NCBI GenBank assembly: GCA_021812265.1
Contig: JAKAOI010000038.1
Span: 1-10,907 of the forward strand
Reading direction: 5' to 3'
DNA: 10,907 nucleotides
Source: Chloroflexota bacterium
GTDB taxonomy: Bacteria > Chloroflexota > Ktedonobacteria > Ktedonobacterales > JACDGC01
Each line of letters begins with the position of its first letter. Position 1 is the stretch's first letter. A program made the translations under genes and the position numbers. The notes below the pieces were generated by a model. It did no database searches, was not told where the DNA came from, and saw nothing but the letters and a program-made list of their open reading frames with translations. Of the stretch, positions 1-10,907 are shown piece by piece.

Positions 1-1730
1 TTTTCTAACATTATTTGCGCGCTTTTGATTTTACCTTGCGCCAATAATATTCTGGCGTGCGCTGCTTGGAGATCGCTAAGTTTGCGCGGCAAATTATCAC
101 GCAATGCCGCTTGTTCTGCCCGGTTCAGCCATAACAAGCCAGTTTCCCAATTTCTGCCCCGATAAAAAACATTCACGAGTGTGTGCGAAAAATGGATTAA
201 ATCGCTATCCATCAGCGCGCTTGTATTCTGCGCCCATGTCATAATACCCAAAATATTGGGAAGATTTTGCTGTAAATCTATTTCAGATGTGTTTACATTG
301 ATGGAACGAAAAAAATCCAAAATTGCTGAACCTGCAAGTAAAATTTCGGCATGTTTCGTGTTTTGTTCAATAGCGTTTGCAACAGCGCGCCCGAGCTTCG
401 TAATACTATACTGCTTGGTAATGTTTTTTGCTGGATTCCATGGGTTTAGCCGCTGCAACAAAGTTTGTTCAGGTATTTGAATATAACGGCGATCTATAGC
501 TTTTTGCACTAATGCGCTTGCGTTTTTTTCATCGCATGCTGCTGCAACAAAATGCAGCGTGTTTGCGCCAACCATATCACCGCCAAACATACCCAATGCC
601 GCAAAAAAGATCCGCTCGTTGGGATCGATCTGCTGATACAGCGATTGACTGATAGCTCGCGATTGCAGCGCGCCAGATTCTTTTTGGCGAATTATTCTCA
701 CTTGCGACATCCCACCGCCGGAAACATAGATATCACTAAGCTGTTGAATATCACCGGGTAGCGCGTTATCCAGCAATACACCGAGTTCTTTTTCATCTTC
801 ATGATGCAAATGGCCTTTTTGTCTGTGAATTTCTTGCTTAAATAGCTGCATTGCCTGATATCCGGTAAAATTTTCTATATAAATGTGTTGATATAACACT
901 TTTTTTTTGGACTCTTCTGCGGATTCAGTAAATGTATATGCAGATTCAGGAATTTTCAGCGCCGCGCCATTAACAAGGATCATATTTTTTGCGCCATAAA
1001 GATAGGGAAGAATTTCATTGAAAAGAAAAGAAGGATCATCGATCTGATCGATGATAATCAGCCACATTTCTTGTTCATCTTCAAAATACTCTTGAACAGC
1101 TTTTTGCATCATTGGAAGTGTGTCACCAACATCACCCGGAATTTTTGTGCCCTTAATAATTCGCCGAAAAATACGCACTATCAGCCGTTGTTTTGCGTGC
1201 TGTTCGGATTCTTCGGGACGCCGTTCTATACTGGAAAAGTCACCGCGCACAATAATGGTGTGCGCGCGAATCCGTTTCGGCAAATGTTGAATAACATAAT
1301 GTGTAATGGTGGTTTTACCGGAGTTTTTCACACCATCTACCACAATCAATTTAGGTTGCTGTGCAGGTTTCAGAGCATTTTTAAGGTTGTTTTCCAATGG
1401 CGGGCGGCGAACATAATTTTCGGGTAATTCAATAAATTCGCTTTGTTTCAGCGCCAATTCTTCTAAATCAATTCCGAGTAATTTATGGCCCATTTCCCAA
1501 ATAAAGTGCATTTTTTCCATATTTTCTATTAGAAAAATCAATGCAACGATTGTAAGCGCCAAACCAGAACCTTGCCCAGGTGTATTTTTCAATAACTCGG
1601 CAATTGAAAGAAATTCTAACGTTTTTTCCCGTATTTCGGGATTAATAAGTAATATGACAATAAAAATTGTAAGAATACCAAGAATGCTATACCGGATCAT
1701 TTGGTTTCGTCGTTCTTGTTTGGTTTTCAT
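1..1730 (-). CDS. Membrane-anchored STAND (NB-ARC-like) P-loop NTPase, C-terminus cut by window edge
   Basis: Reading from ATG at 1730 leftward gives 576 uninterrupted residues that leave the window, so the C-terminus is missing. The start is preceded by GAAGGGA about ten bases upstream. Residues about 14-30 and 55-69 are two hydrophobic segments (the second contains LALTIVALIFLIE), separated by a short charged loop, so the N-terminus probably sits in the membrane. A Walker A motif, GVKNSGKT, lies at residues 133-140. A Walker B-like strand, WLIIDQIDD, is at 223-231, and an NB-ARC/STAND-type segment, YIENFTGYQAMQLF, is near 283-296, followed by a helical region resembling the winged-helix part (TKLGRAVANAI). 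The last visible part (LLWLNRAEQAALRD..., ARILLAQGKIKSAQIMLE) looks like the start of TPR-like helical repeats. Family knowledge: STAND NTPases are ligand-triggered oligomerising switches, with an N-terminal effector and C-terminal sensor repeats. Here the effector position is taken by transmembrane helices. A defence or signalling role is inferred. It is divergent from the Clp-like gene at 2055. Confidence 0.8.
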   Translation of the reverse strand, partial: MKTKQERRNQMIRYSILGILTIFIVILLINPEIREKTLEFLSIAELLKNTPGQGSGLALTIVALIFLIENMEKMHFIWEMGHKLLGIDLEELALKQSEFIELPENYVRRPPLENNLKNALKPAQQPKLIVVDGVKNSGKTTITHYVIQHLPKRIRAHTIIVRGDFSSIERRPEESEQHAKQRLIVRIFRRIIKGTKIPGDVGDTLPMMQKAVQEYFEDEQEMWLIIIDQIDDPSFLFNEILPYLYGAKNMILVNGAALKIPESAYTFTESAEESKKKVLYQHIYIENFTGYQAMQLFKQEIHRQKGHLHHEDEKELGVLLDNALPGDIQQLSDIYVSGGGMSQVRIIRQKESGALQSRAISQSLYQQIDPNERIFFAALGMFGGDMVGANTLHFVAAACDEKNASALVQKAIDRRYIQIPEQTLLQRLNPWNPAKNITKQYSITKLGRAVANAIEQNTKHAEILLAGSAILDFFRSINVNTSEIDLQQNLPNILGIMTWAQNTSALMDSDLIHFSHTLVNVFYRGRNWETGLLWLNRAEQAALRDNLPRKLSDLQAAHARILLAQGKIKSAQIMLE

Positions 1731-1795
1731 GGAAATAAATCCCTTCAAAATCTGAATATATCAGGACTTTCGCTGCAGTATGGAAAATCGGAGAT

Positions 1796-2054: not shown

Positions 2055-3608
2055 ATGACTTCACCACAAAATTTCTTCCAAACATGGGAAGACGCTACAA
2101 TTCAATTTATTGAAAGCGCCCGCAAAAAAAATTCAGACGCTATTCCTTTTTCTACACTGCATATTATTGTCAACGCATTGAATAATCTTCCGTCAGAGCA
2201 AATATATGATAATCCATTACGTAAACTGATGGATGAAAATCAATTGATCGAATGTTTTGCCAGTATTCGCGTACAACTTGCTTTTTATAAGGAAAATCCT
2301 GCCGGTATGCAAACCACCATTATAACAGAGAAAACATTTGTTGAATGGAATACGGAAGCGCAAAAGAGGTCTGTAAAAGTAACGATTCCATTTATCATTT
2401 GGTATATTTTAATGCATGATAAGGTTATTTGGACATGTTTTCATGAATTGACGGATGTTGATCTGTTAATCCGTATGCTGGAACACCGGTTTTCCCAAAT
2501 TTCCGGTGTTTTTTATCCACCGGTTAAAACAGATTCAGTAGAAATGAGTAGTTATATTGAAAGCGTAGCCAATATTATTCTTCCTAGCGATGAAAGGCCT
2601 AATAATTTTGAGAAAAAATTATTGTACGCAGAAATGCACGCTATTTTAATGTCTAATATTCTTACTGTTTTGAATAAACTTGAGAAAAATAGAATAGCTG
2701 TTTTGACAGGAATGTTTGGCACACCCATTAATAATATTGGTGATACACTCGCCGATGTATTAAAAAAAGGCAGTCTTCAACTCAATTACACATCTCGCCT
2801 GCTAGGTTATTCCAAAGTATATCAGCTTGATATGATTGGTTTGCTGAATCTATCGACGCGAGGCGCTAATCCCTTTGCTGTTTTGCAGGAAGTATTTGCT
2901 GAAGCGGAAAAAGATAACGCCATTCTTCTGATAAAAAACTTGCAAATACTCGCTAAACAAACAAATGCGCAGCAGTATATTGCGACAATGGAAAATTCCG
3001 GACGCTTAGTTCTAGGCTTATTTGAAGCCGGAGCGCATAGCAATGATAACCCCAACGAAATATTTGATACCGATACCATTGATGTTATTTTGGCGCGAAG
3101 TTACACCGATGGGCAAACAAAGGCGCTGATAACAGAGCATTACTTGCCGCAATGGCAAAATCTCACCAGCTACACATTTACCCCAGACGCATTTGACACT
3201 ATTATTGCTTTAGAACCCGGGGCGTGGATTGAAACGCGGCGCAAAACATTACCCTATCTTGCAGTCGGTTTGGGTGAGGATACTATTCAAACAGCGCAAG
3301 GCGGCAAGTCGCTTATAGCAGAAACTGCACAAAGCGCGTTGGATACACTGAAAAACTTAAGAGATGAAGCGGCTGTAGCAGAAAGGATCCCTCGCGCTAA
3401 ATATCAGCCAATACTTGATGAAGCGCAGCAGGATATTGAAGCTTTACTGAAAGATCCTCTGCCAAAAAGAAACGCCAATGGCAAATATATTCTTACACGC
3501 GCGCATGTAACAGCGCAATTAATTTGTCCCAACAATAGTGAATTTCATTACCCCGGCATACCTCCAGAGCAATATCTCAGCCGAAAAATAGATTTGCCCA
3601 GTGTATAA
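2055..3608 (+). CDS. Clp-type (ClpA/B/C N-terminal half) AAA+ pseudo-ATPase
   Basis: 517 residues from ATG 2055. A TTG at 2052 is also possible, but GAAAGGA at 2039-2045 sits nine bases before the ATG. Residues about 1-75 and 88-150 look like two divergent Clp-N repeats. Residues 190-445 follow Clp NBD1 segment by segment. ILMSNILTVLNKLEKNRIAV matches the strand leading to the P-loop. GDTLADVLKKG matches the VEGLAQRIVNG helix. VYQLDMIGLL matches LDMGALVAG. AVLQEVFAEAEKDNAILLI matches the strand before Walker B. ETAQSALDTLKNLRDEAA matches the lid helix PDKAIDLIDEAA. Near the C-terminus LTRAHVTAQLICPNN resembles the linker before NBD2. NBD2 is absent, where ClpA/B/C proteins have about 750-870 residues. 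The catalytic residues are gone. The P-loop position reads GMFGTPIN (219-226) instead of GEPGVGKT, and Walker B reads LLIKNL (291-296) instead of LFIDEL. Nucleotide hydrolysis is therefore unlikely. The frame is intact and long, so it is probably maintained as a scaffold, adaptor or sensor. The homology is a by-eye alignment. Confidence 0.7.
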   Translation: MTSPQNFFQTWEDATIQFIESARKKNSDAIPFSTLHIIVNALNNLPSEQIYDNPLRKLMDENQLIECFASIRVQLAFYKENPAGMQTTIITEKTFVEWNTEAQKRSVKVTIPFIIWYILMHDKVIWTCFHELTDVDLLIRMLEHRFSQISGVFYPPVKTDSVEMSSYIESVANIILPSDERPNNFEKKLLYAEMHAILMSNILTVLNKLEKNRIAVLTGMFGTPINNIGDTLADVLKKGSLQLNYTSRLLGYSKVYQLDMIGLLNLSTRGANPFAVLQEVFAEAEKDNAILLIKNLQILAKQTNAQQYIATMENSGRLVLGLFEAGAHSNDNPNEIFDTDTIDVILARSYTDGQTKALITEHYLPQWQNLTSYTFTPDAFDTIIALEPGAWIETRRKTLPYLAVGLGEDTIQTAQGGKSLIAETAQSALDTLKNLRDEAAVAERIPRAKYQPILDEAQQDIEALLKDPLPKRNANGKYILTRAHVTAQLICPNNSEFHYPGIPPEQYLSRKIDLPSV

Positions 3609-5226: not shown

Positions 5227-5931
5227 TTATCTCTCTTGTGCTTCCCAAACAAACAAATTGATTTTCTTTTCCTGAAGAGGTGTTGTTTGTTGCAAGGAAT
5301 ATCCTGAATGTTTACGCATGTGTTCGATAAACGCCACTTTTGCTGCGTTGGTTTTAAGATCTCTAACAGCATAATTAATTGCGCCTATAAGCAAATCAGC
5401 TAACTGTATCTGTTCAACCTCATGTGAACGAACCATTTGCATACGTTCGATAAACTCATGGTTAAAGTCATAAGAGTTATTACAGAGAATATTTTGAAGT
5501 TGCTTAATTTTGTCAGAACTTGAAGTATCCTTGATATCCAGATAGATGCGATAGTGTTCTCCAGGCTTCAGTAACGTTTTCAGAAGATTAAAATACATCT
5601 TATAATACCAAATATCATGATTATGTCCGAAATCGTCATGATGCAATTTGGACTTGTCTGGCACAATTAACGCGCGAAAATGAAGATCACAATTCTCAAA
5701 AAAATAGTTCAAGATATCAATATAAAATGATTGTTTTGCTGGCCCAATTTTTATCCATTTGATTTCAAAATCAGCAGATAAATTATATTGAATTTTTATT
5801 TCTCTGATATGTTTGGCAATTTCGCGAGTTTTCTCAAGCGGGCACCAAATAGCTCCAAGAACCATAACCGGTAAATGATCATGTTCAAGGTGGGCGCTTT
5901 CATCACAATAGATATTATAGATCATTCCCAT
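5227..5931 (-). CDS. DUF3800 family protein
   Basis: 234 residues with the layout I know for DUF3800 proteins. These are thought to have an RNase H-like fold with conserved acidic residues; their biochemical role is not established. Visible landmarks are YNIYCDES at 5-12 (D10, E11), VLGAIWCPLEK (24-34), FEIKWIKI (55-62), DIWYYKMYFNLLK (106-118), YRIYLDIKD (127-135; D132, D135), MVRSHEVEQIQLADLLIGA (166-184; D179) and a SGYSL ending region. The acidic residues in separate strands fit a metal-dependent nuclease-like centre, which is inference. The start at 5931 has GGAG ten bases upstream. A second ATG at 5925 is less well placed. Only one base separates its stop from the start of the split gene at 5225, so the two form an operon and probably one functional module. 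The genes are AT-richer than sbcD and mutS, consistent with an accessory island. Confidence 0.85.
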   Translation of the reverse strand: MGMIYNIYCDESAHLEHDHLPVMVLGAIWCPLEKTREIAKHIREIKIQYNLSADFEIKWIKIGPAKQSFYIDILNYFFENCDLHFRALIVPDKSKLHHDDFGHNHDIWYYKMYFNLLKTLLKPGEHYRIYLDIKDTSSSDKIKQLQNILCNNSYDFNHEFIERMQMVRSHEVEQIQLADLLIGAINYAVRDLKTNAAKVAFIEHMRKHSGYSLQQTTPLQEKKINLFVWEAQER

Positions 5932-6287: not shown

Positions 6288-7931
6288 TTAAAATAATTCT
6301 GAGGTGATACGCCAGCGTTCAAACAGCGCAGTTTCTGCAGCAGTGAACGCAAACAGCGCTGCAGTCTCACTGTCTAATCTCGCGCGTATAGTTTGCAGCG
6401 CTTCTATCGCGCTGTTATTTTGCTGATACACTTGGGTAAGCTCTGTCGTTAGCGCTGCAATAGTTTGCAGCCGCGCAGTATCTTCTATGGGAAGAGGCAG
6501 CGCCGCCAGCATTGCCGCGTCTATCGATGGGCGGCTGAGTTGGTAGACGGTTGCTGTCAGCCGAAACAACAATTGTACTGGTTTAGCGTTCAACAAAACA
6601 GGCAGCGCCGGCCAGCAATTTGCCGGCAAAGTAGTGTCGGCTTTGGGAATTGCCACATACAGCGAATTATGCGCAATCATCGCGCCGCTGCTTTGCGCTG
6701 CCGCAGGAACAGCGCCGGTTCGTGTTATATATATTGCATTGACTGACATGTTGGGCTGCAATGTTGCGGCGTCGGTGGCCGAAATCCATTGTCGCGGCAG
6801 GATTTGATATGGCTTTATATCTCCTGATCGGATCACTGCTATCGATCCTGCATATGCAGTTTCGGAAACAGCGGTTTCTTTGGGGATTTCAACACCTCGG
6901 GCAATATCTGCCAGCAAGGCAAATGATGCGCTTCCTCTGCTTCGGAAACGCTCTATAAATAAGCGCTCTTCAGATCCCAGCGCATACTTCCATTGTTGTT
7001 GCGACCCTTCGCCCAGCAGATCTTGCTCGATAGATCCTTTTATTTTCCATTCTTGCCGCAAATAGCGCGCCGCGCCGGATCCTGTGTCTGCGCTGGATTC
7101 GGCGGATTTGAGCGCAGCAATTTTCTCAACACGTTCCCATGATATGGCGTGTGCAGCCGGTGGATCGCTGCGTTGTGCAGTCATTAAAATTGCCGAAGCG
7201 CCCGAGCGGAATAATCCCTGAGTATGAGTCATTGCCAAAACGGTCCATTCGCGTCGCAATGTTTGGCGCAGCGCTGCCGCTGAAGATTTCAGTAAAAACA
7301 CTTCGGGAAGCGCAATGGCCAAATAACCGCCATATGCGGTTAATTCCATTGCCTGTTCACAATATTGCAGCCAAATATCGCGCGCAGGTTTTGTCGGCGC
7401 TGTTTCGGCGTCCCACACTGCTTTGGATATTTTAATCGGCGGATTTGTCAGCACGATACGAAATCGCGCGCCGGCCATAACCGCCAAGCTATCTGCTTGA
7501 TGGATGTGAAACTGCATTGTTTTGCGCCGCGCCGCCGGTAAATCGGGCAGCAATTGCGCAATAGTTCTGCGCAGCCGCAGTTCGGCAATATGGCACGCTA
7601 TCGGGTCGGGGTCTAGTCCCCATATTGATTTTTCAATCTCTTGCGCTATTCTTTCCGCGCCCCACCGGCGCGCCTTGCCTCGCGCAATAAGTATTTGCGC
7701 CGCCGCCGCTAAAGAAGATCCGGAGCCGCACGCCGGATCGATGACAGAAGATTCTTGCGCCGCAGTGCCGGCTAAATAGTGCGCTTGCCGCAACAGAGCC
7801 AACGCTGCGTTTATTGGCATGGATGACGCCGACTTTATGCCCAGCAGTTTGGAACGCTGCCCGTCATGTTCATAAAGATCGTCGCGTGTTTGATTTTCTG
7901 TAAGTGTTTTGCTGAACTGATGGAAATCCAT
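6288..7931 (-). CDS. N6-adenine-type DNA methyltransferase fused to an HsdS-like target recognition domain
   Basis: 547 residues. The N-terminal part is a class I SAM-dependent methyltransferase of the HsdM/N-6 type. Motif I is VIDPACGSGS (63-72), the motif II acidic segment is GLDPDP (105-110), the motif III region is ADSLA (146-150), and motif IV is VLTNPPI (160-166). After GGYLAIALPEVFLLKSS (201-217) and a linker, residues about 340-500 look like a type I specificity domain: LLADIARGVEIPKE, VIRSGDI, IYITRTGAV, IAHNSLYVAIP, then VLLNAKPVQLL and LAALPLPI, followed by a helical end. Such MTase-TRD fusions occur in type IIG-like and orphan systems, but no nuclease domain or restriction gene is visible here. 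Motif IV normally ends in Tyr, Phe or Trp (NPPY/F). The Ile here is unusual and may lower or alter base flipping. It lies 96 bases downstream of sbcD on the same strand, so co-transcription is likely. The protein is very alanine-rich. The start at 7931 has only distant GGAAGG upstream. Confidence 0.85.
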   Translation of the reverse strand: MDFHQFSKTLTENQTRDDLYEHDGQRSKLLGIKSASSMPINAALALLRQAHYLAGTAAQESSVIDPACGSGSSLAAAAQILIARGKARRWGAERIAQEIEKSIWGLDPDPIACHIAELRLRRTIAQLLPDLPAARRKTMQFHIHQADSLAVMAGARFRIVLTNPPIKISKAVWDAETAPTKPARDIWLQYCEQAMELTAYGGYLAIALPEVFLLKSSAAALRQTLRREWTVLAMTHTQGLFRSGASAILMTAQRSDPPAAHAISWERVEKIAALKSAESSADTGSGAARYLRQEWKIKGSIEQDLLGEGSQQQWKYALGSEERLFIERFRSRGSASFALLADIARGVEIPKETAVSETAYAGSIAVIRSGDIKPYQILPRQWISATDAATLQPNMSVNAIYITRTGAVPAAAQSSGAMIAHNSLYVAIPKADTTLPANCWPALPVLLNAKPVQLLFRLTATVYQLSRPSIDAAMLAALPLPIEDTARLQTIAALTTELTQVYQQNNSAIEALQTIRARLDSETAALFAFTAAETALFERWRITSELF

Positions 7932-8027: not shown

Positions 8028-9332
8028 CTAGCCTTGATCGCTTTGCCCAACTCGCTGATATTCTTCAATAAACCAATCACAAATGGCTTCCGCTGGATCA
8101 CCGTTGAGCGAATGCTGTTTCAAATTTTGCATTATCTGTGACCATTGTTCCGCGGCATTGGCAAATCGCGCATCGGAAAGCGCCATTTGATAGAAAATAT
8201 CTTTTTCCATCGACTGAATGGAGGAACGTGTGTCATCTTCAGGCAAATCAATAGCTTCTGCCGAATCGGTGTTGTCGTGAATAATGATATGCAGCGGCTT
8301 ATATATTGTGACAGATTCGTATAGTTGTTTCATATTGAATGCGGTTCTGTCAAAGGCCAAGTTGCCGCGCAGGTATATATGCGCAACCGGTTTTTCTTCG
8401 GTTTGGGCAAATTCCTGTTTATGCCGCCGCAAAAACCGTGTGAAATCTTCCAGCAGTTCTTCCTGAGATTGCACACCATCTACTATATAAGAAAGCTGCA
8501 AAAATGGCCGCTTCGGCGTAATAATAAGTTCCGCTGAATATTCCGGAGCGGCGGCGGCGGTATCTGTTTGCACATCAATTTGATAATAGCCTCGCTTTTC
8601 CTTAGCTTCTTCAATATTTACTGTTTCCAATGATCCGGGATTATAGATATACCCATCATATGTATATGGCTTATGCACATGCCCCAGCGCAATATAGTTT
8701 ACCAAATCTTTTAACACACGAAAATCATTTCCCGCCGGCAGCCCTTTCAGCCGCGGATCTTCACCGTCTACCCCGGTGTGCATCATTAAAATGCGAAACC
8801 GCACTCCTTGCCGCTCTTCATCTGCGCGAACTTTGCGCAAATAATCGCTGACGGCGCTCATAATATTCCGTGTTTGCGCTCCAACCCATGGCAACCCATA
8901 AATCCGTATCCCTGTTCCTGCGATATCCGTATAACTGCCGGAGCGGGTTTTATCGTCAAACGGAGATAACTGTATGCCTTCGTCGGAAAAATTGAAGGAA
9001 AGTAAGCGGATATACTCCATTTGATTCAGATAACTTAACCAAGAATATCCTTCGGAACGATACGCTTTATCGTGATTTCCTTCAATAACCACGACCGGAA
9101 TCCCTGCTTCGCGCAATCGTTCCAGCAATTTAGTGGCGCTGTATAAAGTCTGTGAATCGATAGAGCGGTTATGAAAAAAATCACCTGCAATCAGCAAACA
9201 TTGGCAATCCGTTTGTATTGTTTCTGTAATCAGGTGTTCCAGCGCGCGGGTAAAATCTATGGCGCGTTCATCTAAGCCATATTGCAGGTATCCTAAATGG
9301 ATATCGGCGGCGTGAATAAGTCGTGTGCGCAT
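8028..9332 (-). CDS. sbcD: SbcD/Mre11-type DNA double-strand-break nuclease
   Basis: 434 residues from ATG 9332. This is a calcineurin-like metallophosphoesterase of the SbcD/Mre11 group, the nuclease partner of the SbcC/Rad50 ATPase, acting on DNA ends and hairpins. The phosphodiesterase motifs appear in order: HAADIHLGY (D10, H12), LLIAGDFFHNRSID (D51), VVIEGNHDKA (N87-H88-D89), MMHTGVDGEDPR (H185) and LGHVHKP (H218, H220). These complete the two-metal site. The rest (YNPGSLETVNIEEAKEKRGYY and a capping/C-terminal domain) is also typical. The frame extends upstream of 9332, but homologues begin right before the DIH motif. Alternative upstream starts would add unfamiliar sequence, and GAAAGGA lies at 9351-9357, a long 18 bases from the chosen ATG. 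No sbcC follows. The next gene leftward is the methyltransferase. It is divergent from mutS. Confidence 0.92.
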   Translation of the reverse strand: MRTRLIHAADIHLGYLQYGLDERAIDFTRALEHLITETIQTDCQCLLIAGDFFHNRSIDSQTLYSATKLLERLREAGIPVVVIEGNHDKAYRSEGYSWLSYLNQMEYIRLLSFNFSDEGIQLSPFDDKTRSGSYTDIAGTGIRIYGLPWVGAQTRNIMSAVSDYLRKVRADEERQGVRFRILMMHTGVDGEDPRLKGLPAGNDFRVLKDLVNYIALGHVHKPYTYDGYIYNPGSLETVNIEEAKEKRGYYQIDVQTDTAAAAPEYSAELIITPKRPFLQLSYIVDGVQSQEELLEDFTRFLRRHKQEFAQTEEKPVAHIYLRGNLAFDRTAFNMKQLYESVTIYKPLHIIIHDNTDSAEAIDLPEDDTRSSIQSMEKDIFYQMALSDARFANAAEQWSQIMQNLKQHSLNGDPAEAICDWFIEEYQRVGQSDQG

Positions 9333-9424
9333 AATAATGGTTTTTTTCAATCCTTTCGGCAGATCTTTGTCATGAACATGCGCCATTCCAATCATGATTT
9401 TGGTTGAATATATTGCTGTTTTTG

Positions 9425-9460
9425 ATTGTAACACAGAACCGAAGCAATGCGTGCTACAAT
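9425..9460. promoter_or_regulatory. Divergent extended -10 promoters of sbcD and mutS forming an inverted repeat
   Basis: Rightward, TGCTACAAT (9452-9460) is an extended -10 box about 43 bases before the mutS ATG. Leftward, the complement of 9425-9433 reads TGTTACAAT, an extended -10 box about 93 bases before the sbcD ATG. The two are reverse complements at 8 of 9 positions and face outward with 18 bases between them, so each promoter's -35 zone overlaps the other's -10. Good -35 hexamers are lacking on both sides, which agrees with the extended -10 type. RNA polymerase binding would be mutually exclusive. Confidence 0.5.
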
Positions 9461-9502
9461 AAAAAAGAATTTTGAACGAAATCTGGACGGATCTTTCTGC
9501 CA

Positions 9503-10907
9503 ATGCCTGTAACTGATGACTTCCAAGGACATTCACCCATTCGCGCGCAATATTTATCTATAAAAAAAGATTATCCGGATGCGCTTATTTTTTTTCGTTT
9601 GGGCGATTTTTACGAAACGTTTGACACCGACGCTGAAATTGCTTCCCGCGAATTAGATTTGACATTAACCAAGCGCGAATGGGGCCGCGGTGAGCGTTCT
9701 CCCATGGCCGGAGCGCCACACCATACCATCGATTCGTATATTGCAAAATTAATTGAGCGCGGCTATCGTGTTGCTGTAGTAGAGCAAGTAACCGAACCAA
9801 ACGGCAAAGGATTGGTGCAGCGCGAGGTTACACGGGTGGTTACTCCCGGCGCAGTTATCGATCCCAGTATGCTTGCGGCGCAGCGCAACAATTACCTTGC
9901 GGCAATTATTACCGGCAAAGACGCGGTGGGTGTTGCGTATGCAGATGTTTCAACCGGAGAGTTTGCCTGCGCCGAAATTGCCGCGACAGATATACCAACA
10001 ACACTGGCGCAGGAAATGGCGCGTATTATGCCTATGGAAACGCTGGTGGAAGCGCCGGCGCAAGCAAAGCTTGACCCGCGCGCGCTGCGCAGTGTTCCCG
10101 ATGATGAACTTGCGTCGGCAGGCTATGATGAAACGCTGCCGCCATGGGCTAAAACTATTGGGCAGTTTACCAAGCATTTTACACCGTTAGATTCCAGTGA
10201 ATTTAACGAACAACAGGCCCGCAGAAGATTATTAGAGCATTTTCATATTGCGTCGCTCGAAGCCTTTGGCTGAATAATCTGTCACTTGCTGTACGAGCGG
10301 CTGGCGCCATCATCGGCTATCTTTCGGTAACTCAGCGGGGTTTATTGGAACACTTAACTTCTTTGGAAACATATTCCACAGAACAATTTATGCTGCTCGA
10401 CCCCTATACCCGGCGCAATTTAGAGTTGTTTGAAAATAACCGGGATCGTTCCGCCAAGGGATCGCTGGTGTGGGCGCTAGATCAAACACGCACTGCCATG
10501 GGCGGCCGCTTGCTGCGCAAATGGATGGGGCAGCCCCTGATAGATATTGCTGCGCTGCATATTCGACTGGACGCAGTAGAATATTTGTTTGAGCGCGCCT
10601 TAACACGCGCAAAACTGATTCAGGCGCTGGCAAAAATCGGTGATTTAGAGCGATTGGCCAATCGTGTTATTATGCGCGCCGCAACGCCGCGCGACCTTGC
10701 AGCATTAAAAGAGAGTCTGCGCGGTACGCAGGAATTATTGATAAACGGGTTGGCGGATGAACTTGTCGTTGGGCCGCTGTCCCAGATTGTCGGCGCTATT
10801 GATCCTTGTGAAGACTGCGCGGCGTTTATCAGTCAAGCGTTGACAGAATCTCCGCCGATAACAGTAACTGAAGGCGGTATTATCCGCGCAGGGTATTCGG
10901 AGATCGG
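9503..10907 (+). pseudogene. mutS: DNA mismatch repair protein MutS, 3' end beyond window, -1 frameshift near 10270
   Basis: MutS recognises mismatches and small insertion/deletion loops and starts mismatch repair. The first frame (ATG 9503 to TGA 10271-10273, 256 residues) covers the mismatch-binding domain with RLGDFYETF, where F36 and E38 sit at the same numbers as the E. coli Phe-X-Glu reader, and PMAGAPHHTIDSYIAKLIERG. It also covers the connector domain (GVAYADVSTGEFACAEI). The reading then continues one base back: ASLEAFG joins LNNLSLAVRAAGAIIGYL from CTG 10270. It stays open to the window end through family-typical core sequence (TQRGLLEHL, MLLDPYTRRNLELFEN, GSLVWALDQTRTAMGGRLLR, WMGQPL). 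Losing one base from a run such as GGCCTG would give exactly this break. No slippery heptamer is visible, so programmed frameshifting is unlikely. The clamp and ATPase domains lie outside the window. Either a real inactivation or an assembly error; identity is certain. Confidence 0.93.

Follow-up and report, generated by a model that had tools for sequence, protein, structure and literature searches.

The window analysed here is an entire contig (JAKAOI010000038.1; 10,907 bases) from the genome of a soil-type Chloroflexota bacterium of the class Ktedonobacteria. At positions 2055 to 3608 of its plus strand lies a gene for a 517-residue protein, here termed the pseudo-Clp, which is made up of a Clp_N-like domain, a degenerate first nucleotide-binding domain (NBD1) and a tail resembling the M domain and linker of ClpC, without a second nucleotide-binding domain (NBD2). 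Judged from sequence, this protein is catalytically dead across its whole family and is kept by purifying selection. It is encoded next to a STAND-like NTPase, and a membrane protein resembling ion transporters is inherited with it. A first-pass annotation of the window had proposed a catalytically dead Clp-like protein acting as a substrate adaptor, as a decoy or as a partner for the divergent STAND protein. Outside what that annotation covered lies a transporter-like gene inherited with the pseudo-Clp, and with it the protein looks less like an isolated adaptor than like part of a module linked to the membrane.

Loss of catalytic residues across the family

Beyond the window, related loci were found in a Chloroflexi metagenome-assembled genome (MAG), a Ktedonobacterales MAG and Ktedonosporobacter rubrisoli (class Ktedonobacteria). 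We refer to the four members by genome as G000 (the window), G001 (a sister species), G009 and G035 (K. rubrisoli, locus L009), and compared them with 51 Clp rows at aligned positions that we take to be the catalytic motifs. Among the Clp rows the Walker A Lys and the Walker B Asp-Glu pair are invariant, and the pore residue is aromatic in 46 of 51. In the pseudo-Clps (given in the order G000, G001, G009, G035), the Walker A Lys is replaced by Ile, Ile, Leu and Ile and the Thr by Asn, Asn, Asp and Asn; the Walker B Asp position reads Lys, Lys, Asp and Ile, and the Glu is replaced by Asn, Asn, Arg and Gly. The sensor-1 Thr has become Phe, Phe, Tyr and Tyr, and the pore-loop aromatic has become Arg, Gln, Arg and Arg; at the two arginine-finger positions a single Arg is kept, in G009 only, and both are gone in the other three members. 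Glycines 1 and 4 of the P-loop and the Pro and Ala of the lid are retained in the family, indicating that the scaffold has outlived the chemistry.

The window protein reads GMFGTPIN at the Walker A equivalent (residues 219 to 226, positions 2709 to 2732; Lys to Ile, Thr to Asn) and LLIKNL at the Walker B equivalent (residues 291 to 296, positions 2925 to 2942; Asp to Lys, Glu to Asn), exactly as first annotated. The accompanying claim that Lys, Thr, Asp and Glu are all replaced holds for this protein; across the family it holds for Lys, Thr and Glu in four of four members and for Asp in three, G009 keeping the Walker B Asp. None of the four has intact Walker motifs, and degeneration of the window copy alone is therefore ruled out.

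Between the window and the sister species the pseudo-Clp is 83% identical, with no insertions or deletions, and the ratio of nonsynonymous to synonymous substitution rates (dN/dS) is 0.139 at a dS of 0.66. Along the protein, dN/dS is lowest over residues 346 to 517 (0.083) and highest over residues 191 to 345 (0.22); for comparison, the same species pair gives 0.136 for the STAND gene and 0.015 for ClpC. The reading frame is open for 517 codons, from an ATG at 2055 (with a TTG three bases upstream) to a stop at 3608, and the frames of all four homologues are open. A decayed pseudogene is ruled out by these open frames together with the dN/dS, in agreement with the earlier argument that a clean frame of this length speaks against random decay. 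The proposal of a conserved pseudo-unfoldase is likewise sustained by the structural match to Clp (below), by the lack of any homologue with intact Walker motifs and by a dN/dS below 1.

The gene had also been credited with a good promoter. The divergent intergenic region (1749 to 2054) carries TTGTAT (1941 to 1946), followed after 17 nucleotides by TATAAT (1964 to 1969), and GAAAGGA (2039 to 2045), all of which recur upstream of the sister-species gene; a consensus promoter scan listed no plus-strand site upstream of the pseudo-Clp gene, and the number of sites it found was not above that in shuffled sequence (6 versus 7.1). The recurrence thus speaks for the promoter and the scan against it.

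Relationship to Clp proteins

In a profile-profile alignment, GMFGTPIN and LLIKNL line up with the Walker A and Walker B motifs of the genome's own ClpC, the frame of which is intact. The C-terminal part of the pseudo-Clp reached an hhalign score of 36.1, against a best of 24.9 among 200 column shuffles, and the entire pseudo-Clp reached 35.8, against a best of 28.1 among 200 shuffles; a reversed alignment scored 16.1. A template-free structure model was matched to Clp/Hsp100 proteins in 50 of 50 Foldseek rows and 46 of 50 VIA rows, among the matches listed. The alignments and the model together indicate homology beyond chance and a Clp-type AAA+ NBD1 fold with its lid (residues about 195 to 437, positions 2637 to 3365).

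This relationship is invisible to single-sequence searches: no Pfam or NCBIfam model matched the pseudo-Clp above its cut-off, and a phmmer search of the PDB returned no match. Alignment by hhalign to one ClpC sequence gave no match, and in hmmsearch, profiles built from the Clp rows gave no clear separation of the four pseudo-Clps from 1,000 shuffled proteins (ranks 1, 4, 5 and 186 for NBD1, with a best E of 0.07 for G009, and ranks 3, 32, 226 and 325 for Clp_N). Sub-cut-off Pfam matches to Poxvirus A49R (E = 0.019) and DUF6694 were taken as chance, and a PDB match to a designed helical repeat (E = 0.097) was taken as a match of helices only.

Support for the Clp_N part is weaker than for NBD1. 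Residues 1 to 150 (positions 2055 to 2504) form a probable double Clp_N domain, with moderate support. With the window protein as reference, hhalign gave 17.4 over one repeat, a score that was attained by 4 of 200 shuffles; when the G009 homologue served as reference, the alignment covered the full double domain and scored 22.7 (best of 200 shuffles, 19.3). The Pfam Clp_N model matched one of the four homologues (G009) below its cut-off (E = 0.0029; 18.2 bits, cut-off 20.7), and the helices follow a 4+4 order in a model whose predicted local distance difference test score (pLDDT) is below 50 for residues 1 to 194. The description of the protein as following the N-terminal half of ClpA, ClpB and ClpC is therefore well founded for NBD1 and the lid and less so for the Clp_N part.

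The helical tail (residues 438 to 517, positions 3366 to 3605) runs through ...SEFHYPGIPPE... at its end, and SEFH.PG..P is invariant in the family. A global hhalign alignment placed the tail on the ClpC M domain and D1-D2 linker (WTGIPV); this alignment was forced end to end and is suggestive only. NBD2 is missing, as had been claimed: the open reading frame (ORF) ends at 3608, the gene that follows it encodes a DNA alkylation repair protein (PF08713; 3694 to 4386, plus strand), and the frames of the four homologues are 517 to 557 residues long. The genome encodes another protein with Clp_N repeats, these above cut-off (L016, G000:C256, positions 2 to 562, minus strand); it is truncated by a contig end and appears to be a ClpC paralogue.

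Distribution and linked genes

Pseudo-Clp homologues occur in 4 of 47 Ktedonobacteria genomes (the class sample; three families) and, in a profile search, in 4 of 400 Chloroflexota genomes (the phylum sample). Two of the four carriers share a genus, so that about three lineages are represented. A scan of genome contigs recovered the same relatives, at three loci among 116 candidate stretches, and a scan with the single pseudo-Clp protein recovered none in 20 candidate stretches. The family is tiny and patchy.

A STAND-like NTPase gene adjoins the pseudo-Clp gene in all four loci; it is membrane-anchored and divergent in three and unrelated in the fourth, K. rubrisoli. In the window (3 to 1748, minus strand) this P-loop NTPase has two N-terminal hydrophobic helices and is truncated by the contig end. 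The sister-species locus has the pseudo-Clp, a divergent 897-residue NTPase with two N-terminal hydrophobic helices and then, on the NTPase strand, a 545-residue membrane protein. In G009 one contig carries the pseudo-Clp together with the beginning of the NTPase gene, and a second contig begins inside such an NTPase gene and continues into a homologous membrane protein; 81 bases at the start of the second contig match the end of the first at 97.5%, and we infer that the two adjoin. The K. rubrisoli locus has the homologous membrane protein divergent from the pseudo-Clp, and downstream a different, TPR-repeat NTPase (L009, 9230 to 11899, plus strand) with no hydrophobic segment and no BLASTP similarity to the membrane-anchored NTPase (E = 0.26).

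The membrane-anchored NTPase family is present in 3 of the 47 class genomes at an E threshold of 1e-10, all of them pseudo-Clp carriers. Matches of the sister-species NTPase to the AAA_16, NB-ARC, NPHP3_N and TPR models all lie under the curated cut-offs. The fragment from G009 clears AAA_16 at 36.7 bits (cut-off 32.6), and the K. rubrisoli NTPase passes TPR models and fails the AAA_16 cut-off. Partnership with a divergent STAND protein, one of the roles suggested at first pass, gains support from the neighbourhood in three of the four loci; the STAND-like gene that adjoins in the fourth is unrelated. AAA_16 matches as such number at least 149 in the 11.3 Mb genome of K. rubrisoli, versus 51 to 74 in the three smaller genomes.

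The membrane protein family occurs in 3 of the 47 class genomes and 3 of the 400 phylum genomes; these same three genomes are pseudo-Clp carriers, and the two genes share a locus. The chance that three random genomes of 47 would all fall within the four carriers is 4/16215, or about 0.00025, a figure that ignores kinship. The transporter was not found in G000, the contig of which ends inside the STAND gene, before the expected position; given this contig end and a genome completeness of 80%, we read the non-detection as missing data and not as absence.

The membrane protein has 12 to 14 hydrophobic segments, and no curated family reaches its cut-off. DUF1646 matched one of the three members (E = 0.017; 15.0 bits versus a cut-off of 21.4) and neither of the other two. 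A profile alignment to DUF1646 over 82 columns near the C terminus scored 30.6, against a best of 23.4 among shuffles (0 of 200 reach it), and aligned S..TDN of the membrane protein with the S...DN motif of DUF1646; a remote relation is likely on these alignments. The top Foldseek and VIA rows are DASS/ArsB-like, from a model with a pLDDT of 46.5, too poor for those rows to count alone. Unrelated chains that VIA matched to the long helices of the protein over short local stretches were disregarded. The protein represents a second new family, resembling DASS/ArsB ion transporters: it is like these and DUF1646 in its hydrophobic segments, its S..TDN/S...DN motif and its fold rows, and unlike them in that its profile scores stay below cut-off. 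Because all three membrane-protein carriers are pseudo-Clp carriers and the NTPase differs in K. rubrisoli, the pseudo-Clp and the transporter look like the core and the STAND-like gene looks exchangeable.

A possible sensor module and its alternatives

Starting from the Clp fold, the family-wide loss of catalytic and pore-loop residues, the purifying selection and the linked genes, we tentatively propose, with confidence somewhat short of even, that the pseudo-Clp serves a membrane module, to which the STAND NTPase and the transporter also belong, as its sensor or regulatory subunit and not as an enzyme. It would be a pseudo-ATPase derived from ClpC, with Clp_N, a dead NBD1 and an M/linker-like tail, that has lost NBD2. 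It would be partnered by a STAND-like P-loop NTPase, which has a TPR-like tail and, in three of the four loci, two membrane helices at its N terminus, and by a membrane protein akin to DASS/ArsB ion transporters. We infer that the pseudo-Clp would neither bind nor hydrolyse ATP and would thread no substrate, and that its Clp_N/NBD1 body would continue to offer Clp-type binding surfaces to a client, adaptor or anti-Clp agent. Through physical contact, the STAND NTPase would read the bound or unbound state of the pseudo-Clp and act as a nucleotide-dependent switch; the signal would then run on to the transporter, which the switched NTPase would gate or regulate, altering the flux of an ion (perhaps Na+/H+). 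A fast-diverging bait together with a slowly diverging transporter would fit such a sensor/effector pair.

The pseudo-Clp could instead regulate the cell's own ClpC. Acting as an adaptor or a dominant-negative subunit, it would use surfaces of Clp_N, NBD1 or the M domain to co-assemble with ClpC or to compete against it, and its neighbours would merely be co-regulated. The domain order (N, NBD1, M-like tail), with an end about where NBD2 would start, agrees with this, as does the intact ClpC frame of the genome. However, Clp ATPase matches occur in 47 of 47 genomes and the pseudo-Clp in four only, both arginine-finger positions are gone in three of four members, and the linkage to the transporter and STAND genes is left unexplained; we consider this account unlikely.

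An immune role, to which we give similarly little weight, would have the pseudo-Clp mimic ClpC and take the hit from a phage protein or natural antibiotic aimed at ClpC. It would be under the guard of the STAND NTPase, whose triggering would turn the transporter into a lethal ion leak. Sequence divergence is faster in the pseudo-Clp (28-32% identity to distant members) than in the transporter (48-50%), the distribution of the pseudo-Clp is patchy (4 of 47 genomes), an intact ClpC is encoded in the same genome, and a nearby DUF3800 gene matches a PADLOC candidate family, all of which would suit a decoy. In the available text of the sources, a part as decoy or dominant-negative effector in NTPase conflict systems is proposed for inactive copies of cellular enzymes (PMC7159879), and mycobacterial ClpC2 sponges up a ClpC1-targeting antibiotic (PMC10030653). 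Yet PADLOC models do not match the pseudo-Clp and match the three STAND sequences scanned weakly or not at all (best E = 4.5e-4); moreover, scans that reach mainly close relatives found none of the G009 pseudo-Clp or transporter on plasmids and none of the pseudo-Clp in viral contigs. Carriage of the genes by a mobile element gains no support from these scans. A bait-type guard, in which attack on or overload of the Clp machinery would be sensed on the pseudo-ClpC, relayed by the membrane STAND NTPase and answered by opening the new-family ion transporter as effector, seems to us rather improbable; if true, it would be a new three-part link from proteostasis surveillance to ion flux.

The least probable alternative is stress-tuned ion homeostasis without a conflict role, in which an ordinary Na+/H+-type exchanger would be regulated by the STAND protein, and the pseudo-Clp, in the manner of a chaperone, would sense misfolded protein or pH. 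The DASS/ArsB-like fold rows, the sub-cut-off DUF1646 match (E = 0.017) and the DUF1646 profile match above 200 of 200 shuffles are consistent with it, and some DUF1646 proteins are predicted Na+/H+ antiporters in the available part of one source (PMC9337991). No regulatory Rfam RNA, Na+ riboswitch included, was found at gathering thresholds in the loci searched (five sources; only a tRNA, in L009), which counts against it. STAND NTPases are, besides, more typical of conflict or signalling systems, and we regard this reading as distinctly doubtful.

Other genes of the window

Two further minus-strand genes match PADLOC models: a DUF3800 protein (5227 to 5931; candidate defence family PDC-M04A, E = 2.5e-92) and an N6-adenine DNA methyltransferase-like protein (6288 to 7931; Eco57I and N6_Mtase, and PADLOC MTase_II at E = 1.1e-16). 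The GC content of the latter gene is above that of its surroundings, and no restriction partner was recognised among the window ORFs scanned. An SbcD/Mre11-like phosphoesterase gene (8028 to 9536, minus strand) is divergent from mutS (9503 to 10905, plus strand); because its GTG start overlaps mutS, the true start is probably further in. The mutS domains lie in two ORFs in different frames (MutS_I/II at 9503 to 10273, MutS_III at 10345 to 10905), indicating a frameshift, either in the genome or in the assembly.

Comparison with known systems

With ClpC, ClpA and ClpB the pseudo-Clp shares the NBD1 fold and lid, P-loop glycines 1 and 4, the lid Pro and Ala, a probable double Clp_N domain and an M/linker-like tail. 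It differs from them in the absence of NBD2 (the site of the ClpP-binding loop in ClpA and ClpC) and in the replacement, in four of four members, of the Walker A Lys and Thr, the Walker B Glu, sensor 1 and the pore-loop aromatic. Inactive AAA+ domains are familiar components of larger machines, and mycobacterial ClpC2 is not known to contain an NBD1. ClpC2, a partial homologue of ClpC1, binds an antibiotic directed at ClpC1 and so serves as a sponge; unlike the pseudo-Clp, it represses its own promoter, and the available part of the source mentions no STAND or transporter neighbour (PMC10030653).

The NTPase conflict systems of multicellular prokaryotes, Chloroflexi included, are described as containing inactive cellular enzymes, an inactive FtsH-type domain, ClpN repeats and STAND-type NTPases. 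They differ from the pseudo-Clp locus in their MoxR-vWA or GTPase cores, and no pairing of a Clp NBD1 with an ion transporter is described in the available text (PMC7159879); neither a MoxR AAA+ with vWA nor a GTPase core was found among the eight window ORFs and the five ORFs of L007 and L009 scanned. A literature search on the pairing of a dead ClpC with a STAND-type NTPase and a transporter gave no description of it among the matches listed.

Plant SMXL/D53 proteins are atypical Clp ATPases in hormone signalling, whose chaperone activity has been little studied. As far as the available part of the source describes them, they resemble the pseudo-Clp in reusing a Clp_N plus Clp NBD body for signalling, and differ in that D2, an EAR motif and the described Walker motifs are present in SMXLs, whereas D2 and the motifs are lost here (PMC9133912). 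If the proposed sensor module is correct, a free-standing dead ClpC body with a signalling NTPase and its own transporter would be a Clp scaffold turned sensor in bacteria, parallel to plant SMXL, and would provide testable genes for the role of Clp N and NBD1 surfaces without ATP and for the wiring of STAND NTPases to membrane ion flux.
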